Notes: a model not told the origin generated them from the sequence alone. A stretch of 64,000 bases of DNA from a virus (IMGVR_UViG_3300009702_001278:1-64000), one strand, 5' to 3'; numbered from the stretch's first letter, positions 5,853 to 57,795 are shown. A program made the numbers and translations.

Positions 5853-6140
5853 AGACGACGACCGTTCCTACTCGCTCTTCGATGCGTGGCAAGCTAAACC
5901 CTATGTCTTGAGGGCTGGAGCCGAGGACCGTTGCATCTTCTCGCATCGGTATTTCATCAGCAGCTTTTTTTCATCTTGGGAACAGCATCGACATTTTCCT
6001 TATTCAGTACAGCCCACCCAATCTTGGGACGCAAACTCATATCGGCACCTTGGGTTGAGCCAATTATCCCAGCCACAAACTCATAATCAAATCGATCAAA
6101 GTAGTATTGCCAAATCTACTTTTGCTATGTCGAATTTCAT
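5830..6140 (-). pseudogene. Small gene interrupted by two +1 frame changes (recoding candidate)
   Basis: ATG 6140 overlaps the stop of the phosphatase gene (ATGA) and opens MKFDIAKVDLAILL, ending at CTT TGA (TGA at 6096-6098). Reading on in the +1 frame from CTT gives DRFDYEFVAGIIGSTQ and continues to a 7-A run (5965-5971). There a second +1 step restores an open frame to TAA at 5830, overlapping the next gene. The joined product would be 102 residues. CUU-UGA is the same slippery pair used by bacterial prfB. Two frame changes also fit a decaying gene or sequence errors. No family is recognised. Confidence 0.5.
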
Positions 6141-6946: not shown

Positions 6947-7029
6947 AACTCGTCCTCTGACTCAAAAAGAATCGTTGCGTTGTAAATCAGGCCAGCTCCG
7001 AGAAATGGGATTAGGTCTTTTGCTCGCAT
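6943..7029 (-). CDS. 28-residue coupled microprotein
   Basis: A short frame fits exactly between two genes. Its ATG overlaps the stop of the Ycf35-like gene (TGATG), and its own TGA overlaps the ATG of the phosphatase. It encodes MRAKDLIPFLGAGLIYNA and an acidic tail ending FESEDEL. The central part is hydrophobic. Overlap at both ends is typical of translationally coupled phage genes, which is the main support for it being real. No function can be assigned. Confidence 0.5.
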   Translation of the reverse strand: MRAKDLIPFLGAGLIYNATILFESEDEL

Positions 7030-7442: not shown

Positions 7443-8336
7443 CTACTTTCTATCAAAAACTTGCCTCTTCCTGGCAAGAAACAGATTCGCTTCATTATAC
7501 AAGTAGAAGCGCATTTTGTCAACCACGTTTCTACCACCAAAACCACAGGCATACCCTGCTGCCACTTTATTGCAGCCACAATTGGCAGGAATGTTTGAAG
7601 CAACAAAAGTAATCACATCACTCGTGCCAAAGAACTGGCCTCTCGTGTGTCCGTCCAGGCATCTCGAAATACTACCATCGCCGTCGAAATACCCTCTAAT
7701 CCAATGCCTGACTAAATCTTCACTAAGTCTAGGGGCCTTCAGCACTTTGCTTTTACGCTCAACAATGCCGTGTTTAATCAAAGATCGCACCATGTGGTCG
7801 CTGCAAAGATCAAGTTGAACTGCACCATCCTTGCGTTGATGAATAGGTTTATTCGATCCAACGCATTCTGACAGCTTTACAAGATGGCTTTCATCCTTCT
7901 TTGCCAAGGTTATTGTCAAGAGTCGCTTGGCTGGCCTGTTGATTACGCATCCATCGGCGGCAATGAAACCGAGCCAGTATGCTTTATCTTGAGTGTTTAT
8001 TTCATCAAAGTAGGCGACATCCAGATCATAACTTCCCCAATGTCTGCGCTTAAGATTATGTTTGACAACCCAACTTGTGATTACGCTACGAGAAACATTA
8101 CACTCAGCTGCAATTCTCTCAACTTGTTGATTTTCTTGGCAATATTTCTGCTGAAGCCACGATTTAGCACGATAAGGATCACGAAGATTCCGCAGTTGAA
8201 ACTTCTTCACCCATTCAGTGATTGTGCTTCGTCCGTGTCCGGTCTCTTTGGCTATCTGAGTGATTTGCTTTCTTTGGACACAGAATTGATCGTATAGCCA
8301 TTCTTTGTTCGTATACATCTTATCCTCCGCAGTCAT
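7443..8336 (-). CDS. LAGLIDADG homing endonuclease with helix-turn-helix domains
   Basis: Two N-terminal helix-turn-helix segments (ITQIAKETGHGRSTITEWV and VERIAAECNVSRSVITSWV) are followed by two LAGLIDADG helices, AYWLGFIAADGCV near residue 130 and HWIRGYFDGDGSIS near 220. This two-motif form acts as a monomeric homing endonuclease. The better start is probably the internal ATG at 8318, which has GCGGAGGATAAG before it. It is free-standing and sits immediately 3' of a truncated radical-SAM gene, suggesting it invaded that gene and part of the target was lost. Confidence 0.88.
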   Translation of the reverse strand: MTAEDKMYTNKEWLYDQFCVQRKQITQIAKETGHGRSTITEWVKKFQLRNLRDPYRAKSWLQQKYCQENQQVERIAAECNVSRSVITSWVVKHNLKRRHWGSYDLDVAYFDEINTQDKAYWLGFIAADGCVINRPAKRLLTITLAKKDESHLVKLSECVGSNKPIHQRKDGAVQLDLCSDHMVRSLIKHGIVERKSKVLKAPRLSEDLVRHWIRGYFDGDGSISRCLDGHTRGQFFGTSDVITFVASNIPANCGCNKVAAGYACGFGGRNVVDKMRFYLYNEANLFLARKRQVFDRK

Positions 8337-8347
8337 TCCAACTTTAA

Positions 8348-8683
8348 CTACGGAGAATATCGGTCAAGTTCCTGCCTCAATCTCATGGTAAACAGATTAA
8401 CATTCGGGAAGAACGCCCCTTGTTTGGCAACTTCTTGATAGTCTATCAAGGCATTTGTCACAGCATTAGGTGAACAAGTAGGCTCGCCACTGCTTGTTAA
8501 CGACAAAGACCAGCCACCGTATCTAGCAGATAACTTCAATGCAGATGTGAACGTGGGAGGCATCTGGTCATCGTGAGAGGCATCTTGCCGCAAGTCTTTT
8601 GCCGCGCAGAATAAGCAGTTGCCGTTGCAAACACTACTACCGACAAGAGCACTAACACTGTATATCCTTTCTATGCAAGCCAT
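8348..8683 (-). pseudogene. Truncated radical-SAM protein
   Basis: The 111-residue frame contains CNGNCLFC, the CxxxCxxC iron-sulfur/SAM motif, at about residues 19-26, followed by LSLTSSGEPTCSP, a GEP-type SAM-binding segment. Radical-SAM cores need about 200 or more residues, but this one stops after about 100 with an unrelated tail (MRLRQELDRYSP) next to the homing endonuclease. The 3' half is not found nearby. Its ATG directly follows the TAG of the vWA gene, in the same frame. Confidence 0.6.
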
Positions 8684-18619: not shown

Positions 18620-20425
18620 TTAAAGTTTAGCCTCCAACATACCAGAAAGCACTTCTGCAAATGATTCAATGTCTTCTCGGCTAGGCTGTGTTAATTTCAC
18701 TTCCGTCAGCTTATTCAAAGCAGCGGGCTCTAACAACTCTAGCACCAGATGGTCGTGAAAAGTACGATACGATCCGCCAGGCACATCATGTAATGCTATG
18801 CAATCTGGGGAGACTCCGACCGTTTCCTCACATTTGCGAGTATGTTCAAACCATTTATCTTCGTCAGCATCCGAAATAGGCTGCGAAGCAGTAACCTTAT
18901 TGCATTGCGCTCGTACTGGGAAATCCTCTCCCTCGCGATCTTTCAATGCCTTGATACGCTTATCCCAACTATCCTGCGGGATAACCCCATACATCCTACA
19001 TGAGAACGGTCGGTCATCATAGACGTGACATCTGCCTTCCCAAAAGATGCAACCCTTCTCAGGGCTGGTGTCAAGGTAGTTGATGATTGCCCTAACCAGC
19101 ATATCACGCTTGGCAGGCTTCTTCCAGGTCTTTTGAATCGTATCCAAAACCTTCAGAAACTCTACATAGTACATGCTGGGGTTGATTGTGCGACAATTAT
19201 GGACTTCTACAGCATGAGTAACAAAGGATTCTTCTCCCAATATCTCTATGTCATAAACATACCCATCAAATGGTTCTATGGTTAATGATTTAACACTCAG
19301 CAAATGACCATGCTTATGAGGCACGCATTTTGTGTGCTGGGAACAAGTTTTATATACGGAATATGCCTTTTTTCTGCTTGGTCTATCATGGCCAGAAACA
19401 GAATATGTCTCTCCAGACAACCAATACAACATCAACAACTGTTCTGACCAATATCGTGATGTTGTTGTACTTGACCTTCTGTTATTGCGAGATATATCTT
19501 GAACTCCATCCCCAGCATAATATCCGTTAATTAAAGACTTTCGCAGAGTGGCGTTATATACAAAAGCACTGAAGATATTCTCATTCACATGTTTATTTTC
19601 GCACCCCCGTCCGAAAAGGGATTCAAACAGTCTGCTTAAAACCACAGAACACATCCGAACAGTTATCGCATTTCCATGATCTGTTTTCTGATTTACGTTC
19701 AGACCTAGCTTATGAGCAAACTTCTTGATTTTATCAACTAAATGGGTTTCTTTGGCATGTAGGTGAAAATTCACTACTCCATACTGACACGAACCTTCGG
19801 CTATAAAAAGCCCAAAAATAAACGCATCACTTGGTTTTATGTCAAAACGATTAGGGATTGGTTTGCCGTTCTTATGCTTAGATGTAAAGCAAAATCCATT
19901 TTCCTCATGCAGCCCATGTACAAAAGATGATACATAAAAGTGACTAGGACTTTGAGTTAATTTAGGGGATTTCGGAAGAATGACATAGTGACCAAATTTA
20001 TTAGATTTCTTGGGAACTAAAGAACTTGATTCAACGAAATCTGGGGATGAAAGTTCTTGTCGGTCCCATCTGGTTATAGATGAGGCATACACTCTATGAT
20101 CGGGAGTTAATCTAATATCTCGCCCATGAGATAACTTTAACAGCAGAATCTCTTGTGCCTCTTTTTTGCCTACTCGCTTAATTTGCCTTAATCCTGATTT
20201 TGTAAAGACTGAATCACCCACAACCAGATCGGAAATTGGAATTGGTCCTCGCACAGTATACACTAATGTATCTGGAGCAAGACAGCACCAGATGGCATCT
20301 TCACCATAGTGCTCTTCACACTGTTCGCAACCTGTAGTTGTGGGCATACGGTCATACAAAACCTTCAATGATATCAAAGGTCTACGTATGTTTGATTCCG
20401 ATGTATCTACACCAAAGGGATTCAT
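18620..20425 (-). CDS. YkgJ-family zinc/iron-chelating protein carrying an intein
   Basis: Removing the intein leaves about 238 residues with CEQCEEHYGEDAIWCC followed by GCIFWEGRCHVYDDRPFSCR. This is the cysteine pattern (CxxC...CC...GRCxxYxxRPxxCR) of the YkgJ/UPF0153 family, thought to bind zinc or iron-sulfur. The intein splits the adjacent CC pair, so the metal site forms only after splicing. ATG 20425 overlaps the stop of the Gp157-like gene. The function of the family is poorly known. Confidence 0.78.
   Translation of the reverse strand: MNPFGVDTSESNIRRPLISLKVLYDRMPTTTGCEQCEEHYGEDAIWCCLAPDTLVYTVRGPIPISDLVVGDSVFTKSGLRQIKRVGKKEAQEILLLKLSHGRDIRLTPDHRVYASSITRWDRQELSSPDFVESSSLVPKKSNKFGHYVILPKSPKLTQSPSHFYVSSFVHGLHEENGFCFTSKHKNGKPIPNRFDIKPSDAFIFGLFIAEGSCQYGVVNFHLHAKETHLVDKIKKFAHKLGLNVNQKTDHGNAITVRMCSVVLSRLFESLFGRGCENKHVNENIFSAFVYNATLRKSLINGYYAGDGVQDISRNNRRSSTTTSRYWSEQLLMLYWLSGETYSVSGHDRPSRKKAYSVYKTCSQHTKCVPHKHGHLLSVKSLTIEPFDGYVYDIEILGEESFVTHAVEVHNCRTINPSMYYVEFLKVLDTIQKTWKKPAKRDMLVRAIINYLDTSPEKGCIFWEGRCHVYDDRPFSCRMYGVIPQDSWDKRIKALKDREGEDFPVRAQCNKVTASQPISDADEDKWFEHTRKCEETVGVSPDCIALHDVPGGSYRTFHDHLVLELLEPAALNKLTEVKLTQPSREDIESFAEVLSGMLEAKL
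19196..20284 (-). mobile_element. Intein with LAGLIDADG endonuclease in the YkgJ-like protein
   Basis: The 363-residue intein begins CLAPDTLVYT (block A), has RDIRLTPDHRVYA (block B, TxxH), LAGLIDADG helices AFIFGLFIAEGSC and SLINGYYAGDGVQ, block F YVYDIEILGEESFVTHA and block G VEVHN followed by Cys. All residues for standard splicing are present (C1, TxxH, HN, C+1), so it should be active. It is inserted between two metal-ligand cysteines. Confidence 0.92.
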
Positions 20426-27964: not shown

Positions 27965-30900
27965 TTACCTAGCGAACAAATCACCCTTTTGACGCCCAAG
28001 TCCTCTCTTCCGGTCGTTTTTAATGGTGTCAAAGTCTCGGAGTAATTGAGATTTTGGCTTATCCTTACCAAATAGATTCGCATCACATAAGGCTTCAACC
28101 ACTTTGCTGTTGACAGCAGAGCCAACTTTGTTTGCGAATGCAAACATCAAGTCGTTGCCTTTATATGGTTGGTTTTCGATAATCTCGTGAGCAGCCTTAT
28201 CACCAACGTCCCTAATAATGAGTGGGCGCAGCAATTCTCGCTCTCCGATCTTAACGTAATGCATCTTAGATAGATTCAAACTGGGAGGGGCAATCTTATA
28301 GTTATGCTTCCGTAAGTCATCCTCATACTTACTAACCAAATCAAAGTCTCTGCGCTGTGCCTCAACCGACAACCTCGAAGCCATAAACTCAAGCATATAG
28401 TGAGCCTTGAGGTAAGCCGTCTTCCAGCACTCGTAAGCATAACTGGTGGCATGAGAATTTCGATTGACAATACCAGAAGATAGGCAATATAAGTGGGCTT
28501 CACTATCAACTTCAAGGTCATAACATTGATTCAGTCCAGCATACTTGATACTTGTGACCCGTACTTTTTGCCAATTAGCTTGACTACTCCTCTTTCCGGG
28601 CATAACATCACCATGTTTAACAGTCGTTGAAACTCCTGGTGTTTGAATCTTTTGTGATGAGATAACCACACATCGTAAGACATTCGAACAACTAGATACC
28701 CCCATTGACAAAGCTGATCGTTTACCTCTATGTCTTTTTGTTGATTTTGTAACAACTTCGTGTTGTTTATGTGATTTATAAAATGGTATTGCCCATCGTA
28801 TTCCACAACTACCTTGCGATCCCTGTCTATAAAATCCACTTGTCTTCTTTGTGAAATGGAAGTAAATTTCTTGCTTTTGATGATTTGTGAATGCTTGAAA
28901 CCAAGAGGGCATAAAACATCCTTTAGATACAACTCGGGGGCTGAGTGCCATTGATTTTGCCTCATTGCGGGCAAAACGCATTTGATTATAAAATCCTCTG
29001 GATTTTCTACCCGCCATTTCCTGAGTTGTTCTGTCCTCGCCTTCAATATTTCTGGTCGAGCAGATGTTTCGATAGCGGTTTCCACCCTGTTTTTCTGGAA
29101 CAGAGATTTGTGAGTCACGTTGAGTTTCTTCATCAAACAGGAACGCCGATGAATTTCTTCTTCGTTGGATAAGATCGCCGCAGATACCGAGGATGACACT
29201 GTTTTCTTGTATTCCGCGAGCCTTTCTGGGTCTTTTTTGATTTCCTCCCAGAATTTTCTTGATATTTTTCCGTTCGATTCCGAATAATGATGAGACTTTA
29301 TTACCTCCCATTGTTGACACTGCTTCTTGTGAGAATAAAGCTCTCGCTTCGTGAATTTTTGCTCGCAACCTGGACAAACAAAAGTCTTTTTGCTCAGTTT
29401 GTATTCTTCGCATTTTCTCTTGTGTTCTATAAACACTCTTCGGTTCGGCAACACCTCCTGACATCCCAGGCAAATCCAATCTTTCCTTTTTGGCATTTTT
29501 TATCTCCCAATTTTGCATAACAAACAAATTGCGTTCTACAATTTCACGAAGAGATCGTATGCCTTGATTAGTCATAAACTTATGATCTAAAGTACATACA
29601 TGTTTACTACCGTCACTAAATTCGACTTCCCACGTTGGTATCACACCATGATCATATACATCTACAATCTCAATTGGATCACCTTCAGGTGAATAAACAT
29701 CAGGCAAAGATTCTCCGCTTCTCTTTCTATTATACAATTCTTGGATAGAAATGTCATTTTCCGAGGTTATGATTTTTTCCGAAAAGGACAGTGACTTGTT
29801 GAAAGCATAACCACCAAACTTCTCCATATCATCCCAAATCTTCTTGGCAACCCCGGAGGGAACGCCCGTCTCGATGGCGGCTCGTAGGAACTGATCCTTG
29901 AAGTTGTTGATGATCTTGATTTTCTTCTTAGCACAACCTTTCATAAACATGTAACCATCAGAAGCGGTCAAGTCTGCCAGTGCCATGAATGCCTGCATGA
30001 CCTGTTCTTGATAGGCCATAATACCATAGGTTCTCTGGGTGATCTTCCGCAGCAACGGGTGGGGGAATTCAACCTTATGTTTTCCTGTCTTCCTATCGGA
30101 CAACTCAGGGATATAATCCTTGGGGCCTGGCCTGTACATCGCAATAGCAACAATCAAGTCATCAAATGAATCAATGCCGATTTGCTGGAAGGTCTGCTTC
30201 ATTCCTGTTTTTTCAGCTTGGAAACACCCGTCAGTATCACCCTTAGCTAACAAGGTGAGCGTTGAATTATCTTTCAAAGGTAACCGAGACAGGTCAACAT
30301 CAACACCGTGGTTTTCCTTCACAAGTTTGACTGCCATCGCCAACGCAGTCTTCGTAGACAGACCTAGCACATCAAACTTAATAAGACCAAGCGACTCGAC
30401 ATCTTCCTTCGAGAATTGCGTTGCTACTGTCTTCTTGGACCAGTCATCATCTGTTGCACCATGTGTAATATGGAGTGGGCAAATTTGCTCAAGCGGAATT
30501 GGAGAAATAATCACTCCTGCTGCATGGCAATTATGGACAAGAATATCCTGAGCGATGAAGTTGGGCTCGTTTTGATAGAAGTCATCACGATCTTTGAATG
30601 TAATGTCCCAAACTTCCTGTTCTTCTAGAGGTTCTATACTTTCAATGGTATGACATTTTATTACTGAGTAGACCTTATATTTTTGAGGATTTTTTCTGAT
30701 TTCCTCAAATTCTACACAACCTTGATCTGTAAATATCAGGTGCTCATCCGTAACCTTGATCCAAGTCCCCTTAGATAACCGCATTTTGTAGCACTTTTTA
30801 ATACCCGTGCAATGAGGATGGAAATCTGACGTATACAGTTCTTTTCCTACTTTATCTATGTATGCAACTTTGCAAGTATTATCAAGCTGATCTATCCGCA

Positions 30901-31636
30901 CCCAGCCTATATCTGTTTTGATAAGAGTATCTTTAGCCAGACACCCATATGCAGAGATAGAGCCTTCTAGCCGTCTTGCGACCCGATATACTTCCGGGTA
31001 CTGCTTCATATACCGGGCAAAATCTGAGAAGGTTTCACAAGCATCGTCAACGCAGTTAATTAGAGAGCCATCCTTCTTCTTAAATGCTGACTGCGACTTA
31101 GGTAATGTGTTGAGAATCTCATTCTGTAGTGCATAGTTTCTGCTTTTGTCTGGCTTGGAGCCGGAGTAGTCTATGGAGTTCTCTGGGTCAAGAATTTCTA
31201 CAGCCTTGCGAACTGCTGCTTTTGTCTTCAGAGTTAGCGTTGTACCAACGTTGCCAACTCTGTCTTCACCGTACTTCTGCTGCAAGTACTCAATAATTTC
31301 ATGGCGTCGAGCATAGTCGAAGTCCATGTCGATATCAGGGAAACCTGCCCGACCATAGGTACGTCGCTTCTCAACCGCAAACTCACCATTGGGTCGGGCT
31401 GTAGTAATCCCTAAAAAGTATGCTACTAGAGAGTTGAGGATATTTTTTCTGCCCGCTTGGATATCACCCTCAGTCAACCTCTTGTATATCTCCAACAGAT
31501 TGTCTACAATGCCCAGGCGTTCCATCTGCTGGAGTTCATCAAACAACCTTTCTTTGTGTTTGTCAAAATCAGGCTTGTCAGTGATAAACGATATTACCTT
31601 TCTTCCTTTTTCACTTAGTTTCATCATCAACCTCAT
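27965..31636 (-). CDS. dnaE: DNA polymerase III alpha (DnaE-type), C-terminal half, with two inteins
   Basis: The extein parts total about 639 residues. They include FPDIDMDFDYARRHEII with the catalytic aspartates, CHAAGVIISPIPLEQ, GLIKFDVLGLSTKT (third catalytic Asp), MYRPGPKDYIPE, TYGIMAYQEQVMQ and FGGYAFNKSHATSYAY. It therefore carries palm, fingers and a C-terminal helix-hairpin-helix region but lacks the PHP domain, which is encoded at 34423-35807. Its N-terminus also contains a palm-like segment (SLVAYFLGIT) that duplicates one in the N-half. Inteins lie at residues 232-369 and 615-1060. The internal ATG at 31624 is a plausible start. Confidence 0.9.
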   Translation of the reverse strand: MRLMMKLSEKGRKVISFITDKPDFDKHKERLFDELQQMERLGIVDNLLEIYKRLTEGDIQAGRKNILNSLVAYFLGITTARPNGEFAVEKRRTYGRAGFPDIDMDFDYARRHEIIEYLQQKYGEDRVGNVGTTLTLKTKAAVRKAVEILDPENSIDYSGSKPDKSRNYALQNEILNTLPKSQSAFKKKDGSLINCVDDACETFSDFARYMKQYPEVYRVARRLEGSISAYGCLAKDTLIKTDIGWVRIDQLDNTCKVAYIDKVGKELYTSDFHPHCTGIKKCYKMRLSKGTWIKVTDEHLIFTDQGCVEFEEIRKNPQKYKVYSVIKCHTIESIEPLEEQEVWDITFKDRDDFYQNEPNFIAQDILVHNCHAAGVIISPIPLEQICPLHITHGATDDDWSKKTVATQFSKEDVESLGLIKFDVLGLSTKTALAMAVKLVKENHGVDVDLSRLPLKDNSTLTLLAKGDTDGCFQAEKTGMKQTFQQIGIDSFDDLIVAIAMYRPGPKDYIPELSDRKTGKHKVEFPHPLLRKITQRTYGIMAYQEQVMQAFMALADLTASDGYMFMKGCAKKKIKIINNFKDQFLRAAIETGVPSGVAKKIWDDMEKFGGYAFNKSLSFSEKIITSENDISIQELYNRKRSGESLPDVYSPEGDPIEIVDVYDHGVIPTWEVEFSDGSKHVCTLDHKFMTNQGIRSLREIVERNLFVMQNWEIKNAKKERLDLPGMSGGVAEPKSVYRTQEKMRRIQTEQKDFCLSRLRAKIHEARALFSQEAVSTMGGNKVSSLFGIERKNIKKILGGNQKRPRKARGIQENSVILGICGDLIQRRRNSSAFLFDEETQRDSQISVPEKQGGNRYRNICSTRNIEGEDRTTQEMAGRKSRGFYNQMRFARNEAKSMALSPRVVSKGCFMPSWFQAFTNHQKQEIYFHFTKKTSGFYRQGSQGSCGIRWAIPFYKSHKQHEVVTKSTKRHRGKRSALSMGVSSCSNVLRCVVISSQKIQTPGVSTTVKHGDVMPGKRSSQANWQKVRVTSIKYAGLNQCYDLEVDSEAHLYCLSSGIVNRNSHATSYAYECWKTAYLKAHYMLEFMASRLSVEAQRRDFDLVSKYEDDLRKHNYKIAPPSLNLSKMHYVKIGERELLRPLIIRDVGDKAAHEIIENQPYKGNDLMFAFANKVGSAVNSKVVEALCDANLFGKDKPKSQLLRDFDTIKNDRKRGLGRQKGDLFAR
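28457..29794 (-). mobile_element. Intein 2 of the DnaE C-half, with an out-of-frame endonuclease gene inside
   Basis: The 446-residue intein starts at Ser615 (SLSFSEKIITS), has block B HVCTLDHKFMTN and ends with CYDLEVDSEAHLYCLSSG then IVNRN, followed by Ser of the extein FNK-SHATSYAY. The penultimate residue is Arg instead of the usual His. Roughly residues 708-1022 do not look like an intein domain. They are a basic, unstructured-looking translation of a separate gene read in another frame (28531-29496). The intein frame nevertheless contains no stop. Confidence 0.85.
28531..29496 (-). CDS. Homing endonuclease nested in a different frame inside DnaE intein 2
   Basis: ATG 29496 follows GGGAG at normal spacing and opens 321 codons in the +1 frame relative to the intein. 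The product begins with two C2H2-like zinc fingers (CLGCQEVLPNRRVFIEHKRKC and CPGCEQKFTKRELYSHKKQC, each truncated here to its ligands). It has a helical basic middle and a C-terminal nuclease core: RRQVDFIDRDRKVVVEYDG, QYHF, then GYLVVRMSYDVWLSH. The D...VEYDGQYHF pattern fits Vsr-like/EDxHD endonucleases. Its 3' end overlaps the start of intein block F, so about 40 nt are coding in both frames for conserved sequence. Confidence 0.85.
   Translation of the reverse strand: MPKRKDWICLGCQEVLPNRRVFIEHKRKCEEYKLSKKTFVCPGCEQKFTKRELYSHKKQCQQWEVIKSHHYSESNGKISRKFWEEIKKDPERLAEYKKTVSSSVSAAILSNEEEIHRRSCLMKKLNVTHKSLFQKNRVETAIETSARPEILKARTEQLRKWRVENPEDFIIKCVLPAMRQNQWHSAPELYLKDVLCPLGFKHSQIIKSKKFTSISQRRQVDFIDRDRKVVVEYDGQYHFINHINNTKLLQNQQKDIEVNDQLCQWGYLVVRMSYDVWLSHHKRFKHQEFQRLLNMVMLCPERGVVKLIGKKYGSQVSSMLD
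30530..30943 (-). mobile_element. Mini-intein 1 of the DnaE C-half
   Basis: The 138-residue intein begins CLAKDTLIKTDIG (block A), has IKVTDEHLIFTDQG (block B), VWDITFKDRDDFY and FIAQDILVHN (blocks F/G), and is followed by Cys of the extein CHAAGVII. It has no endonuclease domain. All splicing residues are present. It is inserted at the highly conserved HAAGV motif of the polymerase. Confidence 0.9.
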
Positions 31637-34422: not shown

Positions 34423-35807
34423 TTATTGATACCTATCCGACATTACTGCCACAGGATTAGATTTATCCAGTTCCCCATCACTTTTATTCTCTGATTTATG
34501 TGTACTATTATATCCGCCGATGCCAAAATCATTCTCAGAGATAAAGTAGGCATCATCAAAACCAAGGAACCGCTCCCACAGCAAGTCCTGTTCTATCGGA
34601 TCAACACCCTCGGTAATACCCAAGCACTTCAAAAGTAGCGAGCCATATCCAGACCCACGAATGCCTGCTGCAATCTTGTTTTCTTTGGCAAACCGCATCA
34701 CATCTTCAACAATCAGAAAATAAGTTGCGAAATCAAACCGTTTAGTATCCCATATGAGTGTGACATCATCTAGCTCTCTGGATAAACGATCACGATGAGG
34801 CTTCGACTGATCTAGGCCCTCTCTCTTCAATCCCGCCCAGGCCAACTTCTTCAGATAGTTCAGAGGGTCGAATTCGCCTTCTGGTAAGTCGAATATCGGC
34901 AGCCGCATCGAGCCAAAGACAATGTCAGAGTAGTCGCATTTGTCAGCGATCTCAAGAGTATTGTACATTGACTGACGACAATGCTTGAAGAACCTCAGCA
35001 TCTCTTCTTCAGACTTCAGATAGAATTCATTAAACGGAAACTTCATTCGCTTCGGATCACGAATGGATCGCTTACTGCTCATACACATCAAATATTCGTG
35101 AAACTCTGCATCATCTTTATTGATATAGTGGCAGTCGTTGGTCACAATAGTCTTGATACCAAGCTCTTTGCTAATCCGTTGGATGCCGGGAAGTACCTTG
35201 GCTTCTAAATCTATTCCGTGGAACATCATCTCCAGATAATAGTCATCACCAAAGATGTCTTGGAATATGCCCGCAGCCTGTTTTGCTGCATCGTATCTAT
35301 CGCAAGAGAGATGCCAGTTAACCACGTTGCTCAGGCAAGCCGACGTTACAATCAGACCTTCCTTGTGCTGTTCAAGCAATTCTAGGTCGATACGTGGATC
35401 ATAATACGTGCCATCCAGGGATGACTTCTGAGCCAAAGCACAAAGATTTTGATATCCCTTATAGTTCTTCGCTATCACGTTGAGATGACGATTACCACGC
35501 CTGCCATCAGGTTGACCCCCCTTGGAGTGGCAGTGGTGATCTCTGCATAGATATGCCTCCACACCCAAGATTGGTTTAATGCCTTGAGTACGGCACTCTT
35601 TCAGGAACACAATAATACCTGCTATTGTGCCATGATCTGTCAGTCCTAATGCGGGCATTCCCATCTCTTTGGCTTTCTTCACCATACCTTTGACAGATGA
35701 GAAGCCATCGAATTTACTGTACTGAACACTCCAGTAGATACTCCCCTACCCAAAAGGCAGGGGAGCAGCTACTGTGAGTGATTATGGATTTGTATAAAAT
35801 CGCTCAT
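34423..35807 (-). CDS. dnaE: DNA polymerase III alpha N-terminal half, with a 50-nt coding gap
   Basis: The start is ATG 35807 after AAGGAG. Twelve codons (MSDFIQIHNHSQ) are followed by UAG. Frame and homology resume 50 nt later as YSKFDGFSSVKGMVKKAKEM, then PALGLTDHG. The joined FIQIHNHSQYSKFDG aligns residue for residue with the E. coli DnaE N-terminus (FVHLRVHSDYSMIDG). The rest is the PHP domain and the start of the palm (FDFATYFLIVEDVMRFAKEN, GSGYGSLLLKCLGIT, LLWERFLGF), ending before the catalytic aspartates supplied by 27965-31636. Without bypassing, only the part from an internal ATG at 35685, lacking the first PHP strand, could be made. Confidence 0.88.
35722..35771 (-). promoter_or_regulatory. 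Putative translational bypass (hop) element, 50 nt
   Basis: Take-off codon CAG (35772-35774) is followed directly by UAG (35769-35771). A hairpin at 35741-35765 has a 10-bp stem (CTCCCCTGCC/GGTAGGGGAG with one G-U) and a 5-nt loop. GGAG at 35729-35732 lies 4 nt before the landing codon CAG (35722-35724). The gap is exactly 50 nt, the size known for T4 gene 60. The same elements there (matched codons, UAG after take-off, hairpin, upstream GAG) promote ribosome hopping. Whether it works needs experiment. Confidence 0.72.
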
Positions 35808-47697: not shown

Positions 47698-48564
47698 TTA
47701 CGATCCTTCCATACATAGCTTTATCTCTACGTTGGATGGATCAAGCATAATCTGCAACGCTCCTGCACCAAGCATCTGTTTGACTCTATCAGAGTTAATA
47801 CCCCCTACTCGGGGCTTACCATGACAGCCAGACAAAAACTCGGGGTTGCACGTTACAATAGTGGGAAGGCTGCTGCGCCTATAGAATAATTGGTCAAGAT
47901 CGACCACTTTATTGTTGGATACATCGAAATTGTCGATAACGAGGAAATTTACTTCCGCCCATTCATCTAACTGTTCAAAGTCAATGTATTTACCAAAGCT
48001 ATAAGCGGCGTCTACCAACACAGAGCCTTCTACCCATCCGAACGTATAGTCCTTACCACTGTCTATTGAGGCTCGAACAACTTCTTTCAAAATCAACGCC
48101 GCAAGCAAAGATTTACCACTTCGATTACCACCCGCAATAACGACATTTCCGCCACACACTGACTTCTCATGAATCAGCGAATGCTTTTGTCGTTCTTCAC
48201 GAGTTGATACCAAATTGATATCATCGGTATCAAAGCAGTAACACATCGCTTGCGAACGAGCCCGTTGAGCGACCATAGCAGCAGTATTCTCATTCATCCC
48301 TTCAATACAACCAATTACCTCGGTTCTGCCGTTTGGATATCGAGTCCGCAATGAGCCATTAAAATCGCTCCAGTTGTAGTACTTGAGTCCTGATGGTTTC
48401 AGCTTGATCTGCTCAAAACGCCACTTGACCGCAGCTAAATGTTGGCATCCACAAGCTGTCCAACCATTATCCCTAAGCACACACTTAACACCCTTACAAC
48501 GAGGGCATTGTGATGCGTAATGTTCCTTGTATTCTGAGTACGATATTAGAGATTGTCGATTCAT
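47698..48564 (-). CDS. DnaC-like AAA+ helicase loader with zinc finger
   Basis: The N-terminal CPRCKGVKCVLRDNGWTACG is a zinc ribbon. The AAA+ core has VVIAGGNRSGKSLLAALIL (Walker A), NFLVIDNFDVSN (Walker B) and PTIVTCNPEFL (sensor 1). This size and order fits phage DnaC/DnaI-type loaders, and it sits directly upstream of the DnaB-type helicase gene, the usual pairing. Confidence 0.75.
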   Translation of the reverse strand: MNRQSLISYSEYKEHYASQCPRCKGVKCVLRDNGWTACGCQHLAAVKWRFEQIKLKPSGLKYYNWSDFNGSLRTRYPNGRTEVIGCIEGMNENTAAMVAQRARSQAMCYCFDTDDINLVSTREERQKHSLIHEKSVCGGNVVIAGGNRSGKSLLAALILKEVVRASIDSGKDYTFGWVEGSVLVDAAYSFGKYIDFEQLDEWAEVNFLVIDNFDVSNNKVVDLDQLFYRRSSLPTIVTCNPEFLSGCHGKPRVGGINSDRVKQMLGAGALQIMLDPSNVEIKLCMEGS

Positions 48565-49736
48565 TCAGTTAAGTCATCTTCAGTCAGATCGTTTAGGTCG
48601 CCCGCCAAATCAAAAGTTCGGTCGGGAGTCGAGACTGCATACGATTTGCCTGAACCAGAAGAGTTGGCCAGACGAGCACGACCGCCCGATCCATCCTTAC
48701 CCTTGGCCCATTCACGCATGACGGTGACTTCCTCTCGCCTGCTATTATACAACGGTTGGAATTTGCCTATCTCACTGACAATATCATCGGTCGTTACCTT
48801 GCGCTTCTTATCTTGGAATGCCAAGAATAGCGCATTATTTATTCCCTTTTCCATTTCAGCAGGGCTGTAGTTATCAGCCGCATCTGCGATTCTCGACAGA
48901 TTGAAGTCGGCTGGGTCTCGATCTTTCCGCTTTAACAAAACTTCTGCAACCTCAACCCGTTGATCCCGGTCGGGTAGATCAAGGAAGAAGATTTCATCGA
49001 AGCGCCCTGCACGCTGAAACTCAGGTGGGATACCATCAAGATTGTTAGCAGTTGCAATAACGAAGACAGGCTCTTCCTTTTCCTGCATCCACGTCAACAG
49101 CGTACCAAAGACTCGGTTGGTAACTCCACCATCAGTGACATTACTACTTGCTACCCCACCAATACCCTTTTCGATTTCATCCACCCAAAGGACACAGGGT
49201 GCAATAGCTTCCGCAGTCTGGATGGCAAGTCGAGTATTCTCCTCAGACTCACCAATATGAGCCGAGAATAAGGCCCCAATGTCCAGCCGCAGAAGTGGCA
49301 TCTCAAAATGGACACCAACTGCATCCGAGATCATCGATTTTCCTGTGTTGTGGGACACGATATCATTGGAATAATATCTATGACTTAAACTCTTCACCTC
49401 TAAATCAAAGGTGTCTTTTACTCCTATAGATTCTTTAGCGACAACTGCTTGCCACCCGGACATTGTGCGTACTAAATCCTCCTGCACATTGATGTCTTCC
49501 GACTTCTTCCATGAATGACACTCAACACTATCACTCGTCCATATGTAATGATCAGCAGAACATCCGAGTTCTTGACCATTTTCCAGCACCAAATTATAAC
49601 AATCTTTATTCCGCTTCTGTACCAGTGATCCTATGTCTTGCCATCCATCGGGAGTATGAATTTGATAAGTACCTCCATCCTTACACAAAGCAAAAAACTC
49701 TTCTATCGTAATTTCCTGTTCTTCATCTTTTTGCAT
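48561..49736 (-). CDS. Ycf46-like AAA ATPase C-part, preceded by a split-intein C-fragment
   Basis: Residues 1-130 are the C-terminal fragment of a split intein: block B ELGCSADHYIWT, block F DTFDLEVKSLSHRYYSNDI and block G VSHN followed by Thr. Residue 131 on completes the Walker A motif (TGKSMISDAVG) and continues LFSAHIGESEENTRLAIQ, PCVLWVDEIEKGIGG (Walker B), ATANNLDGIPPEFQRAGRFD (sensor 1, arginine finger). It must be joined in trans to the 50647-51645 product. Start ATG 49736 has AGAGGA upstream and overlaps the endonuclease end. Confidence 0.88.
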   Translation of the reverse strand: MQKDEEQEITIEEFFALCKDGGTYQIHTPDGWQDIGSLVQKRNKDCYNLVLENGQELGCSADHYIWTSDSVECHSWKKSEDINVQEDLVRTMSGWQAVVAKESIGVKDTFDLEVKSLSHRYYSNDIVSHNTGKSMISDAVGVHFEMPLLRLDIGALFSAHIGESEENTRLAIQTAEAIAPCVLWVDEIEKGIGGVASSNVTDGGVTNRVFGTLLTWMQEKEEPVFVIATANNLDGIPPEFQRAGRFDEIFFLDLPDRDQRVEVAEVLLKRKDRDPADFNLSRIADAADNYSPAEMEKGINNALFLAFQDKKRKVTTDDIVSEIGKFQPLYNSRREEVTVMREWAKGKDGSGGRARLANSSGSGKSYAVSTPDRTFDLAGDLNDLTEDDLTE

Positions 49737-50611
49737 AGAATTTCAATCCTCTTTCGATACTTTCGGTTAAACTCGACTGCACCTTTTTCAAACAAAGACA
49801 CAATCCGATCCGTTTCTAATAATTTCACGTCAACCATCTCAAACTCAAGACCGTTGTTTTTACAAAATTCAATCGCGGCCTTTCTCTTAAGTATATTCGA
49901 TGGAGTTTCCATTAACTGCTTTGGTTTAACTTCTACCAGCACTTTGTTGTCTACTAGAAAATCCGGTCTATATGTTCTTGAAGTGCCATCGTAATTGGTA
50001 TACGGTATAAAGAACTCCTTAGTTTCAGCACTTCGCCATTCATGATCATTTCCCTCAAGAACCCTAATCATATATGACAGCTCTCGAAGACTTCGGAAAT
50101 ACCATCCTTTATACCATCCTCCCCAGCCGCCACCAGACCCCTTTGGAGCAGGCTTCCCGTACATAGGGTTGTTCTCACCAGAAGAATTCTCCGATTGAAC
50201 CTTAAGCCACTTCGCAAACTTTTTTGCAGCTACTTCCCCTCCAAGTTGATCTTTCCAAATGTCATAGAAGCTCCTGCCAAACATCCCATTCTGAGTACCC
50301 ATCCTTGCAGAGGTTTTTTTGAATTCTTCCGTCTGAGTGTAGCTGCGATCAACCTCTTCACTCAAATACTTCTTAGTTTCTTCCGAATGTTTTTTCCCAT
50401 AAAACGAGTTCTTTTCTCCAACCCGTTTTTTGGCTCTCTCCGATCTTTCCTTCTTTATTTCTAATCGCGATCCTACTTCCTTCGATCTGCAAGAACGACA
50501 TAGTTTCTTGTCTTTATCTGCGCGATTCCTATTCTTAATATTCGCATAAGTTAACTCTATCTTACATTCAGGGCAATTCCTTAAAAAAGGAGGTAAAGAT
50601 TTCTTTCGCAT
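49703..50611 (-). CDS. NUMOD3/PD-(D/E)XK homing endonuclease inside the fractured ATPase gene
   Basis: NUMOD3-like motifs (NSFYGKKHSEETKKYLSE, NNPMYGKPAPKG) are DNA-binding repeats of homing endonucleases. The C-terminus has TYRPDFLVDNKVLVEVKPKQ, a canonical PD...ExK nuclease core. An N-terminal zinc-binding pair (CPECKIELTY ... CRSCRSKE) adds a third element. It has its own SD (GAGGAG) and lies exactly between the two halves of the split-intein ATPase, the place expected for the element that fractured the gene. Confidence 0.88.
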   Translation of the reverse strand: MRKKSLPPFLRNCPECKIELTYANIKNRNRADKDKKLCRSCRSKEVGSRLEIKKERSERAKKRVGEKNSFYGKKHSEETKKYLSEEVDRSYTQTEEFKKTSARMGTQNGMFGRSFYDIWKDQLGGEVAAKKFAKWLKVQSENSSGENNPMYGKPAPKGSGGGWGGWYKGWYFRSLRELSYMIRVLEGNDHEWRSAETKEFFIPYTNYDGTSRTYRPDFLVDNKVLVEVKPKQLMETPSNILKRKAAIEFCKNNGLEFEMVDVKLLETDRIVSLFEKGAVEFNRKYRKRIEILCKKMKNRKLR

Positions 50612-50646
50612 AATAGTTTCTCCTCGTCGGATAGCCCGACACAGGA

Positions 50647-51645
50647 CTATTCTACGAAAATTTGATGTTCTCCTTCATCAGAAATCTTTTTTACTCTGAT
50701 TTTTGTATCACCCAAAACACAACCTGGAATGCCCACAAGCAGCACTCCCTTTGGGTTGTCCAGTCCGAAGTCTCTGGCATCGGATTTGAAACCAAGCCTA
50801 CGCATACCTAGCCATTCTTTCAGATTGTCAAGTCCACCGATCTGGTCAAACGAGAACCTACTATCCCTGTACTCCAAGATACCTCCCTTACGGATAATCT
50901 GTTTCTTTTCGTCTAGGATAGTTGATATATCGAACGTTTTCGTCTTGACCAACGATTTAGCATAGGCATTCTCTGCCTCGGTAATCGTCAATCCCGTCGT
51001 TGAATGTAGAATCTCTTCCCGGTTGTCTCTTGCAGACTTCAAGGCATTAGGAAAACGAGCTGGGATATGTTTGCACATCTTCGTGAAAGAAACTTCGACC
51101 TCTTCTCGGGACGGGGGCGGAAAGTCAATCAGGGTGAATTCCTTCTCTAATGCCACTGGGCAGACAAAGACAGGTGAAACAATCACAATATAACAGACCG
51201 ACGTGAAGCTAGCAAACTCTTTGAAGAGCCGCTCGATCACAGGAGCACCTTCCAAAAAGTGGTGGAAGTCGAGCAACATAAAAATCGAGCCTGCTGATGC
51301 CGATTCTTTCTCATTGGCAGACTTGGCTTGATCTATAATATAATGCAGTGCCGCCTCCGCATCGTTGTGAACTTCACTTTCTTTAGCTTGAATTTGCTGC
51401 AACGAGGAAGCATCTAACATCCCCCTGCTGAAATCCCAATGAAACAGATTAAAGCCTTCCGAATAGGCAATCAGTTTGAAGGCACTGATAACCCGACGCT
51501 CTTCTGGGCTGCGGATATAGAGTATCCGGTATCTACTCTTGATATGATAGAATAGTTCACGACCAATTTGGCCGTCACCTAGAGCAAGTAGCTGCTGGCG
51601 ATATTCCCGCCGCACCTTTGGCGTGAGGGTTATTTCCTGGCTCAT
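50647..51645 (-). CDS. Ycf46-like AAA ATPase N-part, ending in a short split-intein N-fragment
   Basis: The N-terminal 270 residues match the Ycf46 layout: RYRILYIRSPEERRVISAF, FHWDFSRGM, then IGGLDNLKEWLGMRRLGF. The ATPase core reaches GVLLVGIPG, the first part of Walker A, and is then cut by CVLGDTKIRVKKISDEGE ... FVE, a 24-residue intein N-fragment (50650-50721). Trans-splicing with 48561-49736 restores GVLLVGIPG-TGKS. A 24-residue N-fragment makes this an atypically split intein (break between blocks A and B). Confidence 0.88.
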   Translation of the reverse strand: MSQEITLTPKVRREYRQQLLALGDGQIGRELFYHIKSRYRILYIRSPEERRVISAFKLIAYSEGFNLFHWDFSRGMLDASSLQQIQAKESEVHNDAEAALHYIIDQAKSANEKESASAGSIFMLLDFHHFLEGAPVIERLFKEFASFTSVCYIVIVSPVFVCPVALEKEFTLIDFPPPSREEVEVSFTKMCKHIPARFPNALKSARDNREEILHSTTGLTITEAENAYAKSLVKTKTFDISTILDEKKQIIRKGGILEYRDSRFSFDQIGGLDNLKEWLGMRRLGFKSDARDFGLDNPKGVLLVGIPGCVLGDTKIRVKKISDEGEHQIFVE

Positions 51646-51665: not shown

Positions 51666-52149
51666 TCAATTCTTAATCGGATGCACGATAGTATGCACCT
51701 GACCAGTTGAACACTTTATCTGGCCCTGCCTTACCTCTCCGATTTCAGTTATTATAGAGGCTAGCTTCTCATTTGCCAAGTGGGCATTTGCTTTTTCTCT
51801 GCCCTTTAGCTGGATCAACAGTTTGACGCTGTAACCTTTACCAAGGAATTTTTTGATGTGATTTACTTTGGTCGCCTGATCATGAGGGTCAATCGTCAGA
51901 CGAAACTTCATTTCCTTAAGAGACAGCGATCTGCTTGTTCTTCTGAGACTGCTTCTTCCGCTCATACTTCCATTTACCCTCATCCATAATCCGATAAACT
52001 GGGTTTTTGCCTTGCTTGCTGACCTCGATCAAGTCGAGGCCCGCATCCTCTGCATGTTGCTTGGCAGCGGCATAAGACATAGAGCCCAGGTTTGTACCGT
52101 CCTCATCAACAACGAGAATATTATTCCTGAACATCGTTCCGGCACTCAT
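51666..52149 (-). CDS. infC: Translation initiation factor IF3, split by a frame change at UCU-UAA
   Basis: The first frame gives the IF3 N-domain (VVDEDGTNLGSMSYAAAKQH, AGLDLIEVSKQGKNPVYRIM, GKWKYERKKQ) and stops at TAA (51916-51918). The +1 frame immediately continues KEMKFRLTIDPHDQATKVNH ... KGREKANAHLANEKL, the IF3 C-domain. Joined at UCU-UAA-G the product is 160 residues and the junction (IAVS-KEMKFR) fits the IF3 linker (VxVKEIKFR). Possible readings are a +1 programmed frameshift, two separate polypeptides (the C-domain from ATG after AAGGA), or a small insertion. IF3 itself is rare in phages. Confidence 0.82.
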
Positions 52150-53494: not shown

Positions 53495-54922
53495 TCATTG
53501 GGCAATAACCAGGTATTCAGAACTCCTGTTAGTTCTGCCTTGATTCTTGCGGTAGAGATAACGGTATTCGTCAGTCAGTACTTCAACTTTAACATCATCT
53601 TTGAACTGCTTTACCAGATCAACGATGTAGTCGATATCCTTCCAAGAGGTATCATTATAGGAGAAGAGCCATATTGGTATGTGGGTAGCCGCATTAAGCA
53701 TCTTTAGGAAGTGCTCTTCGTATTCTCGTTTTCTTACAAAGGTTTTAGCGTTCTGGATATGAGGTAAGTCCTCTAGAGGTTGTCCGTAGATGAACTCCTC
53801 GAAAAATCTATAGATCGTAGCGTAGTCTGAGGACTGACCGCCGTAAGGTGGATCAAAATAAGCGCATTCTACCTTTAACCCGCTCTCTAAAAGGTCTACA
53901 ACATCCATATTTGTTGCTACGCAGTCGCCTGGCATATCTAGGTCAGCAAACGTCCACCATTTGAATCCTTGTCCTGGCTTTCCTTCTGTATCACTGGCTC
54001 CCAATTTGGTATGAAAGTCCATCTCTGTAGTGCCCTCATTGTCCCACGAGGCTTTGATCTGGTTTTTCTGGTGGGACATACGAACTTTCATCTCTGCCAG
54101 AGCTTGCCCTTTATTCATTCTGCCGCCTACAAAGCAGTCTCTCAGGACATGCTGTTGTAGATTAGCGAGAAAGGAGGCTCGTTTGATCTTTGGCTCAAGG
54201 GTTTCTACACGGCAACCCGCAGTAAAATCATCAACATACTTATGGAACCACTTATGAAACTTTAGACTGAGATCGTCGTCATAGTAAATTCCTATACGCC
54301 TATCGTGCCTCGCAGTACCCTTACCGTATGTTTCTTGTTGCTTACGCCTATGAGAGAGAATATCATGGCTAGCGTCTACATTACCAAAGGGCAGGCGCAT
54401 GATAATTGCTGCATTTACAGCTAGTCCGAGGCTTTGCAAGTGGTAGTTGCAGAGATCGTCTATATTTGCGCGAAAATTATCAAGTTGCCTACATTCTTTC
54501 AAGGTGAATTTCCTGAATCGTACATCAGATTCACCTTCACCAAGGTAGTTATCTTCCACAAATGTTGATCGACCAGAATTGTCGTGATTCAGAAGGAATT
54601 CCTTGTCTTTATCACTTAGCTTGATACCGGGGTTCTCTACAAAAGCAACGGCGTTGAGATAAGACGATGTAAGCACGTCATTTGCAATAACTTTCTTACC
54701 CATCAACTTGAATAGCATAGATACAGATGCGCTACCAGAGAAAGCGTCTAAAACCGAGGAGAATTTCAGACTATGCTTCTCGATAGCTCGATGGATATGG
54801 TAGAGCAACTTCTTTTTGTTCCCGGTGTAGGGCAGCGGCAGCTTCTCAATCCGTTTGATCGGAATAGAGAGATCAGTCTCATAGACATCGGGGGTGTTTG
54901 TGAACCGCCTCATTTTTCTCAT
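53495..54922 (-). CDS. Large D12-class adenine-N6 methyltransferase
   Basis: PLPYTGNKKKLLYHIHRAIE (Dam-like GxKxxL), SVLDAFSGSASVSMLFKLMG (motif I) and CAYFDPPYGGQSSDYATIY (motif IV DPPY) are in the alpha-class order. At 475 residues it is longer than Dam (about 280); a 200-residue central insertion probably holds the target-recognition domain. It is the fourth or fifth DNA methyltransferase in the window. ATG 54922 overlaps the helicase stop (ATGA). Confidence 0.85.
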   Translation of the reverse strand: MRKMRRFTNTPDVYETDLSIPIKRIEKLPLPYTGNKKKLLYHIHRAIEKHSLKFSSVLDAFSGSASVSMLFKLMGKKVIANDVLTSSYLNAVAFVENPGIKLSDKDKEFLLNHDNSGRSTFVEDNYLGEGESDVRFRKFTLKECRQLDNFRANIDDLCNYHLQSLGLAVNAAIIMRLPFGNVDASHDILSHRRKQQETYGKGTARHDRRIGIYYDDDLSLKFHKWFHKYVDDFTAGCRVETLEPKIKRASFLANLQQHVLRDCFVGGRMNKGQALAEMKVRMSHQKNQIKASWDNEGTTEMDFHTKLGASDTEGKPGQGFKWWTFADLDMPGDCVATNMDVVDLLESGLKVECAYFDPPYGGQSSDYATIYRFFEEFIYGQPLEDLPHIQNAKTFVRKREYEEHFLKMLNAATHIPIWLFSYNDTSWKDIDYIVDLVKQFKDDVKVEVLTDEYRYLYRKNQGRTNRSSEYLVIAQ

Positions 54923-57795
54923 GAGAATATCTTCTTAGGGTTAGGATCAATATGTTCTATATCAAATTCAGGTTCAGTAGAATACATCTGCGCTCTAGCT
55001 TTAGCATGATCTGCCAAGTATTTTTGGTGCAAATGGAAGTCGATAACCGTGGGGAATGGTTTATCCTTGTCGGGTCTGATGACTCGACCAATTCTCTGCA
55101 TTGCCCTTACTTTAGATTTGCCTTGCCCCGCAAGTATCAAAGTATCCAGAGGTTTTACATCAATACCCTCGTCAAAGATAACAGTACTTATGATGCACTT
55201 GATATCTTTGTTACGCAACTTATCGATAGCGTCGATACGTTTCTTTTTAGGACTATTGCCTGAGAGGAAATGTCCACCAGGAACCATCATTTCTAGGTAC
55301 TTGCCGTGTTTAACTTGAGTCACTAATATAAGCACCAACCTATCTTGTCCTATATAGGCATTTGCTATATTGGCAATTGCGTTGTTGTAGAACTCGTTCT
55401 CTACTACTTGATCTTTGTAAACTGACTGCCATTGCTGATAGAGTGATCTCTTGCCGCGCAAATGCACCATCTTAATATAGGGTTTCATTAAGAATGGTTT
55501 TCCAGTAGATGGATCGATGGTAGTAATCAACTCACTTGCAGTTATCTCGGCTACTTTCTTGCCGAAGCATCCCTGAATCATCATATCATCTCCTTCATCC
55601 CTGTATGGAGTAGCTGATGTCCCATATATAAAGAAGCAGTTAGGCAAACTTCTAGTCACCAGTTGGCAAGTGTCTGCTCGCCAATGTTGGACCTCATCAC
55701 AGATGGCACCTTTGGCATCGTGCAGTAGTGCTCGAATGTCTTCCCGATATTTCTGAACAGGAGTTTGGTCATCCTCATCGTCTGCGTCAAACTTGGTTTT
55801 GGCATCCCATTTCTTACCAAGGGCTCTTACAGCGGTTTGGATAGTCAGAACGGTAATGTCACCGAACTCTATCTTACCCCCACCAATCTGTCCGACAGTG
55901 AAAGGAGACCCGTTAAGTCTGAGGAACTTCTGCAACTCAGTCCTGGCTTGGTGAGCTAGGTCGATTGAGGTGACAAAGAATAGGAAGGGAGAGACCTGAA
56001 GACGTTTGATTAACCCCGCGCAAATTGCGGTATTGTGGTTTACGAATCCTTGGGCAGAGAACTACTGAGAGCAAGGAACTACAAAGTCATAGTTCCTGCT
56101 TATTTCAGATTTAGATGTCGCAACAGCATCATAGTGAAACTGGTCACTACAAGTGTTATTTAGTAGTTCGATTATATCACGAGACTCGTCACATTCGTAA
56201 TCTTGCGACCATGACAAAAATTTTCGTAATGATGACCTGGAAGGATTTCTGTCGGATTGAATCCATGAACGTATAGACCCGTATGACACTCCGCTCTGGG
56301 AGAATACTTTTGTAACGTTATGATATCCAACCTTACTTCGTATAATGTCTTTAAGATTTTTGATTAGGTGCGATTGATGCGGTATCACATCCAGGTTGCT
56401 ATTCGGTTGAATCGACATCTTTTTTGTAATTTGCCTAAGTTTTCGATGTTTATGCCCTAGTTCATCTAGTCCTATGTGTTGAACAAAGATTGGTATATAA
56501 TCTCTGTATATTGAAATTCGGTATGAGGGATGACAATTGGTTTGTTTAACGTGTCTGGTAGAAACTATTCCAAAGTTAAGAAGCATGACTTGGACTTGAA
56601 CGGATAATCGTTCTGATGATGTTGCTAAACAAACTGCATGGTCTTCTACCCACCCATCAGACTCAAATAATCCCCTCAGAAAAGACGCAACAACTTTTTT
56701 TGGAGACTGTCGAATTCGTAAAGGAACTTCCTTGTGTATTGAAAGTGAATATTCACACCCTATCTGATACAGTTCTTCCCGGTATTTCTTATTGTGAATA
56801 AATAGTTCTCGACATTTTTCAGATGTCTTGTGTTTCTTATCGTGTAATTTGAGACCTCGTTTTTTACAATAAGTTTTAGCAAAACGTATGATATGCTCAT
56901 CTTCGTTCGTGAGTCGAACAGTTGTCTTGCTGGTTAAACACCCATCACCAATGAGCAGCCCAATCCAATACCCGTCAGACGAATTCAAAGAGTCGTTTTC
57001 TCCAAAAAGCATTTGATTTTTATGTACTACACAAAAATCGCCCTTTTTAATCTCTTGTAGGCACCGCCATTGTTGTTGTCCTTCACTTGTTAATACTTTA
57101 ATTCTGTGAGATGGAGTACCACATATTTCAAATCCTGATTGAGTGGTAACTTTTATAGATTTAACCAACCCATCATAATAAATATGAGATGATATATCAG
57201 TGCCATTTTCCGAGTCTGGGGTAGAGATAACAGATTTATGTTTGTGATATTCTCCTACATCAAGATCGCACTTAGGTAATTCTTTGTTAAGAAGTTCTTC
57301 AAAAGTTAGGGTACCACTGTCGGTTATCACTAAGCTATCATAACGAATACATTTCCCGGCTCCGGTCGCTGCCTGAATGATACCTCTCTGTTGGGTGGCA
57401 GCATCTTCGCAGACTTTAGACTGGTAGTCTCGTTCTATGAAATCCTCTGACAAAGAGAAATCTGTATTTTGCTCAGGCTTTTCGCGCAGATCACGGGCGC
57501 GATAGGGAATGTTTTCTTCCTTCAGGTACGATGCAACAATTGAGTAAAGACCAGTTGGAAAGTAAGTACGCGTCTTATTCCTCCAGGCTTGGCGCTTCCA
57601 GCCATCCCAGATTCGCTTTACCTTCACCTTCTTGCCGGTTTCTTCATCCGTGCGATAAATCCACCGGTTGTACAGAGGGCTGAAGGTAAATCCTTGAGGT
57701 CTAAACGAAAGTAGTTTCTCGATTTCTTTCCACCGGGAAGTTTTTAGGTCGCCTATGATATCTACAAATACGTTACCTACCCTCAGTTCCAGCAT
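54919..57795 (-). CDS. UvsW-like SF2 helicase with an intein interrupted by an in-frame UAG
   Basis: The first 148 residues end at Walker A (ERDYQSKVCEDAATQQRG, IIQAATGAGK). A LAGLIDADG intein follows (56032-57351), and the helicase resumes TAICAGLIKRLQVSPFLFFV, then AICDEVQHW (DExH), FFIYGTSATPYRDEG, STVIFDEGIDVKPLDTLILA and RAMQRIGRVIRPDKDK (motif VI). Everything is in one frame except a UAG at 56062-56064 inside intein block F. T4 UvsW-type helicases act on recombination intermediates and origin RNA. Unless UAG is read through, no active helicase can form. Confidence 0.85.
56032..57351 (-). mobile_element. LAGLIDADG intein in the helicase Walker A, carrying an amber codon
   Basis: The intein starts CIRYDSLVITDSGTLTFEEL (block A), has GFEICGTPSHRIKVLTSEG (block B), LAGLIDADG helices DGYWIGLLIGDGCL and SFLRGLFESDGWV, and block F NYDFVVPCSQ-UAG-FSAQGFVNHN followed by Thr. 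All splice-site residues are present. The UAG replaces one residue of block F, about 10 codons before the end. It sits in the helicase P-loop (GAGK-T), a frequent intein site. Confidence 0.85.

Follow-up and report, generated by a model that had tools for sequence, protein, structure and literature searches.

A phage AAA+ ATPase gene with a predicted split intein at Walker A and a homing endonuclease gene between its halves

Results

A stretch of viral DNA of 64,000 nucleotides (IMGVR_UViG_3300009702_001278:1-64000, here called the window, which belongs to a virus record of 65.8 kb) very probably holds a phage AAA+ ATPase gene interrupted at Walker A by a naturally split class 1 intein, with a homing endonuclease (HEN) gene as the middle cistron; from this anatomy and from related loci we infer trans-splicing, homing and the fates that follow loss of the HEN. 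The ATPase is encoded as two genes, cut inside Walker A (GIPG|TGKS), within a run of three consecutive minus-strand genes: the N-gene (51645-50647, 332 amino acids), the HEN gene (50611-49703, 302 amino acids) and the C-gene (49736-48561, 391 amino acids). The N-gene ends in ...GVLLVGIPG followed by CVLGDTKIRVKKISDEGEHQIFVE, while the C-gene begins with MQKDEEQEITIEEFF... and runs to IVSHN followed by TGKS; joining GIPG to TGKS restores Walker A. Plausible ribosome sites are present for all three genes, and the 3' end of the HEN gene overlaps the start of the C-gene by 34 bp in a different frame.

An earlier note on this DNA, made from the sequence alone, had placed the cut at this point and had named uninterrupted homologues as the check on it; the junction proved exact. 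Residues 30-309 of the N-gene product match positions 24-316 of the phrog_8638 profile, and residues 130-350 of the C-gene product match positions 315-537. Similarly, the match to the ATPase of mycobacteriophage Shida stops at N-gene residue 309 and begins at C-gene residue 132, with abutting positions in the Shida record. Among 91 loci with this ATPase, 86 are uninterrupted across both Walker motifs (two further interrupted loci were found later), and the joined protein aligns with intact phage ATPases with no gap or overlap at the junction. The N-extein (residues 1-308; 50722-51645, minus strand) ends in KGVLLVGIPG, the first half of Walker A, and has homologues in mycobacteriophages and others. 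The C-extein (48561-49346, minus strand) runs from TGKS, with its +1 threonine, through the AAA+ core, Walker B (LWVDE) and lid to the C-terminus (Pfam AAA, E 3.6e-22; phrog_8638, E 3.6e-77). The ATPase belongs to the phage family phrog_8638 and has a core of the CDC48/p97 type in a PDB search; no Ycf46 model turned up in the profile libraries used, and no test was made of membership in Ycf46, the family to which the earlier note had likened the ATPase. To judge from the cut P-loop, ATPase activity would depend on splicing.

The intein fragments have the lengths and limits that had been proposed: a 24-residue N-terminal fragment (IntN, CVLGDTKIRVKKISDEGEHQIFVE; 50650-50721, minus strand, with the TAG stop at 50649-50647) and a 130-residue C-terminal fragment (IntC; 49347-49736, minus strand) with blocks B, F and G. 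None of the catalytic residues is missing, since Cys1, SxxH in block B, the aspartate and histidine of block F, the terminal HN and the +1 threonine are all present. In IntC, SADH corresponds to block B, TFDLEV and SHRYY to block F and VSHN to block G, the stretch after TFDLEV leading to SHRYYSNDIVSHN; block F thereby includes the aspartate that is one of the marks of class 1 split inteins, along with Cys1, T/SxxH in block B, a terminal HN and C, S or T at +1. With the GKS residues that follow it, IntC is 53-69% identical to four relatives, and Cys1, HN and a +1 T, C or S are kept in five intein loci. The Pfam Intein_splicing profile matches IntC alone weakly (E 0.002). The evidence for a HINT fold comes from a model of a relative with a contiguous intein, locus L010 (IntC 68% identical to that of the window), and not from the halves in the window. 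This model is confident (pLDDT 84) and its best PDB match by Foldseek is VidaL (6VGV; E 5.8e-8, TM-score 0.80 by target length), with gp41-1 also found; the sequence match to VidaL has an E value of 7.8e-7. These motifs, and the fold of the relative, point to a class 1 split intein for which trans-splicing is predicted.

Inteins split before helix alpha-1 (S1 position) include VidaL and PolB16, while the S2 position, after this helix, is that of AceL-TerL (PMC13014065). The alignment with VidaL begins at the first helix (VidaL residue 23, at QEITIEDFF), which places the split ahead of that helix, and in the L010 model the helix at 58-66 lies past the split. By this alignment the split is at S1, of the VidaL/PolB16 type, and an S2 split is ruled out. 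The earlier note was right in calling the split atypical, but a likeness to AceL-TerL at the split site did not hold; likewise, the 24-residue IntN is short but sets no record, as those of VidaL and PolB16 have 16 and 15 residues (PMC13014065).

The middle gene (49703-50611, minus strand) has an intact reading frame between the ATPase halves, and the endonuclease type assigned to it by the earlier note was borne out by Pfam matches to NUMOD3 (E 1.4e-9) and a TnsA-like nuclease (E 1.2e-8). In 16 full-length HEN relatives E177, D217, E227 and K229 are invariant and the zinc-finger cysteines are kept, and the PD-(D/E)XK pattern E...D...ExK is conserved across the alignment. Single-sequence searches with the N-gene and with the HEN gave no viral relatives; alignment-based searches did recover them. 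Contigs of bacterial and archaeal genomes, searched with IntC, gave no match. Divergence estimates indicate that IntN, IntC and the HEN are under purifying selection: pairwise nonsynonymous divergence (dN) is 0.12-0.46 for the three, whereas synonymous divergence (dS) reaches 0.36-1.13 in the short IntN and approaches or exceeds saturation in the other two. The cassette is AT-richer than its surroundings (GC 31/40/40% versus 47-49% for the exteins).

The Walker A intein is present in five distinct contigs, namely the window and loci L092, L178, L180 and L010. The window, L092 and L178 share the three-gene layout, the split intein with a HEN gene and the 24-residue IntN, which rules out chance and an assembly error and agrees with the fractured-gene arrangement (extein in two open reading frames [ORFs], HEN ORF between) that had been suggested. 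L180 retains the split intein, but its halves are separated by a short gap that holds no HEN. Its C-gene begins at GGAGAAACTATTATG, which in the window (50609-50623, minus strand) supplies the HEN gene with its ribosome site and start codon; among the window and 180 loci searched, this 15-mer matches only there and at L180 4989-5003, which suggests that the HEN was deleted between these two start codons in the L180 lineage. The IntN is 24 residues long in the four split cases, and that of L010 aligns over the same 24. In L010 the intein is contiguous and carries an in-frame relic of the HEN core exactly at the split position: the last codon of the N-gene (GAATA of GAATAG) leads into a 67-bp segment (L010 3091-3155), followed by IntC. 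The segment is 80.6% identical in nucleotides to the HEN core of the window (49973-49907, minus strand; YRPDFLVDNKVLVEVKPK...) and its in-frame product is YSPDFIVDGKVLVEVKPK; as it lacks the catalytic E177, the nuclease is presumably dead. On sequence comparison, then, the series of states at this one site is unusually complete: an empty site, a split intein with a HEN or without one, and a re-fused intein that bears a HEN scar.

The ATPase tree joins L010 and the window as sisters (support 0.998) and places the remaining split carriers elsewhere among empty-site relatives, with which intein carriers are interspersed (L092, for example, adjoins L016). This placement and the HEN traces in L180 and L010 make the split intein with HEN the most economical ancestor, the states in L180 and L010 appearing derived, as judged from five sequences. 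From a contiguous ancestor, an identical split with an IntN of 24 residues would have had to arise repeatedly; for this reason, and because L010 is the sole contiguous case among the five and is nested with the window, such an ancestor is less likely.

L010 also has GIPR at Walker A and CVLRKT in block A (2993-3060), with a cluster of G-to-A-like changes, and its fused intein may be failing. A TnpB-like ORF is inserted beside its ATPase (5827-7017), and a DnaB-like helicase (7864-8592) has an apparent intein at the P-loop. Walker B is a second site in the same ATPase: L002 and L010 carry a different split intein there, with a zinc-finger/HNH-like ORF between the halves (an HNH label taken from reading the sequence, Pfam giving no confident match), and L178 has a contiguous one. 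By these comparisons one phage ATPase is a repeated intein target, for two unrelated endonuclease families.

The HEN family is mostly free-standing, the majority of relatives being outside inteins. A Walker A motif lies in the first 80 residues of the downstream ORF for 12 of the 20 non-redundant HEN relatives that have such an ORF, compared with 16 among all 242 ORFs of these loci, a background that contains the 12 (binomial p 5e-10, which is not a strict probability since the HENs are related to one another). The HEN stop is 11-70 nt upstream of the Walker A codons, and the neighbours span the Pfam families thymidylate kinase, AAA_33, AAA_28, AAA_30 and APS kinase. One branch (L098-L106, members with readable sequence) is without this association. 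The placement of HEN genes next to Walker A of unrelated P-loop genes suggests P-loop codons as the homing target of the family, a site that the window intein also holds. In L130 (3863-5557) a NUMOD3-type nuclease is followed by an apparent canonical IntC (VIVHN|SGCT), which looks like another fractured gene.

Several other elements of the window, all on the minus strand, are recorded here. DNA polymerase III alpha is in two genes (34423-35685 and 27965-31636), with several ORFs between them, two methyltransferase-like on reading, and no intein seen at the break. The ORF at 27965-31636 contains an intein with no break in its frame over the whole length of a nuclease gene of 321 codons (DUF559-like, a weak match) that lies in another frame at 28531-29496; no stops are found over this gene where synonymous shuffles predict 18 (0 of 5000 shuffles open), and it looks like a HEN overprinted inside a contiguous intein, one that terminates in NRN rather than HN. 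A further intein in this ORF is a mini-intein (SAYG|CLAKDT...LVHN|CHAAG). A helicase (56062-57795 and 54919-55935) has a LAGLIDADG intein at Walker A (ATGAGK|C), with an in-frame TAG a few codons ahead of the intein's C-terminal HN, and a cysteine-rich protein (18620-20425) has another LAGLIDADG intein (IWC|CLAPDT...VHN|CRT). An IF3-like gene (51666-52149) shows an apparent +1 frameshift at TCT TAA G, either programmed or a sequence error; it is a single ORF in L002, L010 and L092. A phage-encoded transfer-messenger RNA (778-1157) has the tag ANDAPLAMAA.

Discussion

Our results suggest the following course of events at this site. The 24-residue IntN and 130-residue IntC would bring the two proteins together into a HINT fold, and trans-splicing would ligate ...GIPG and TGKS..., yielding an active ATPase. 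During co-infection the HEN would, most likely, cut the Walker A-coding DNA of cassette-free alleles; IntN, HEN and IntC could then be copied in as a single unit, and the occupied site would shield the carrier. After loss of the HEN the intein may stay split, as in L180, or deletions may re-fuse it and leave a HEN scar behind, as in L010. The states themselves come from comparing sequences; their order is our reconstruction.

Several observations weigh against this account. Trans-splicing, cleavage at Walker A and homing are steps that we infer, and besides the window only two loci with the HEN (L092 and L178) were found. The block F histidine present in the window is not conserved in these two loci. 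The structure model of the HEN was poor (pLDDT 46), and its nuclease fold therefore rests on profiles and conserved residues. Finally, intein and C-extein divergence are alike (55 versus 50% for window and L092), which would leave room for vertical descent with repeated loss.

It is very unlikely that insertion of the HEN simply broke the ATPase and that both halves are decaying with nothing spliced. Splicing is deduced rather than seen and L010 has the odd Walker A and block A residues described above, but the frames are open, dN is low, the motifs are intact and the same layout occurs in phages that share as little as 32-35% N-extein identity with the window. A gene in pieces, whose halves assemble non-covalently with no splicing, has a precedent in a ribonucleotide reductase of a phage, interrupted by a HEN and cited in PMC10448857; we consider it highly improbable here, as assembly alone would not need the Cys1, HN and +1 residues kept in all five loci.

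A group I or II intron that unites the halves in the RNA, or recoding of the stop codon, would make this a cis-splicing intein; both are barely credible. The HEN carries NUMOD3 and weakly matches intron-associated endonucleases, but Rfam at E values up to 10 gave no group I or II intron or other structured RNA around the HEN, the HEN gene and C-gene overlap in different frames, and a short gap is all that separates the halves in L180. Recoding can be rejected: TAG terminates 15 of the 61 genes in the window, and in four relatives the N-gene closes with TAG, TAA, TAA and TAG.

The preferred reading, a split intein with a HEN gene between its halves, may be taken further, although with slightly less than even confidence. 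The NUMOD3/PD-(D/E)XK family may home to the Walker A DNA of unrelated P-loop genes; where the P-loop is already occupied by an intein, the HEN would lodge at a non-canonical position within it and split it. Such a split would be reversible, HEN loss giving a bare split intein and deletion a contiguous one with a scar. A single insertion site displaying every state bears on how natural split inteins originate and on whether they are dead ends; the part of the literature covered yielded no account of one re-fusing to a contiguous intein in nature. The position of these HENs beside Walker A codons of unrelated genes opens the target to testing, and the 24-residue IntN may serve protein labelling.

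Fractured genes in which a HEN lies between the halves of a split intein were reportedly described by Dassa et al. in 2009. AceL NrdHF resembles the window in its extein in two ORFs, split intein halves and free-standing HEN gene between them, but its intein divides at the canonical position (98 + 48 residues) and its HEN is of the GIY-YIG type (PMC7891396), whereas the window has an S1 split and a NUMOD3/TnsA-like HEN. AceL-TerL and GOS-TerL share the short IntN and long IntC but have S2 splits and terminase exteins. The IntC of the window is distantly similar to TerL inteins (29-31%; L011, L093); the terminase genes of these loci (L093 2580-6077; L011 1580-6191) have AceL-like atypical split inteins, one of those in L093 with a different ORF (DUF7487 match) between its halves. 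The terminase of Shigella phage JK32 (MK962753, L175) also combines a related PD-(D/E)XK nuclease with an atypically split intein and a separate IntC ORF, but there the HEN is fused in frame to IntN and the site is in TerL rather than Walker A; this locus (L175 950-4061) is annotated as two terminase genes. In collaborative homing, whose origin has been described as unclear, a free-standing HEN acts with a neighbouring intron (PMC10448857), so that nuclease and splicing element are encoded apart but could be inherited jointly, as here; in the window, however, splicing would be the work of a protein intein, whose split houses the HEN gene. Only a single conserved site has been reported for the HEN domains of inteins, with exceptions expected if free-standing HENs invaded randomly (PMC6801210), and L010 and the window are candidates for such exceptions. 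The closest system by both sequence and fold is VidaL (6VGV/6VGW), likewise a class 1 intein with Cys1, a short IntN and an S1 split, differing in its extein and in its IntN of 16 residues rather than 24 (PMC13014065). A fractured gene with a split intein and HEN is already known, and the window adds the S1 split and the NUMOD3/TnsA-like HEN.
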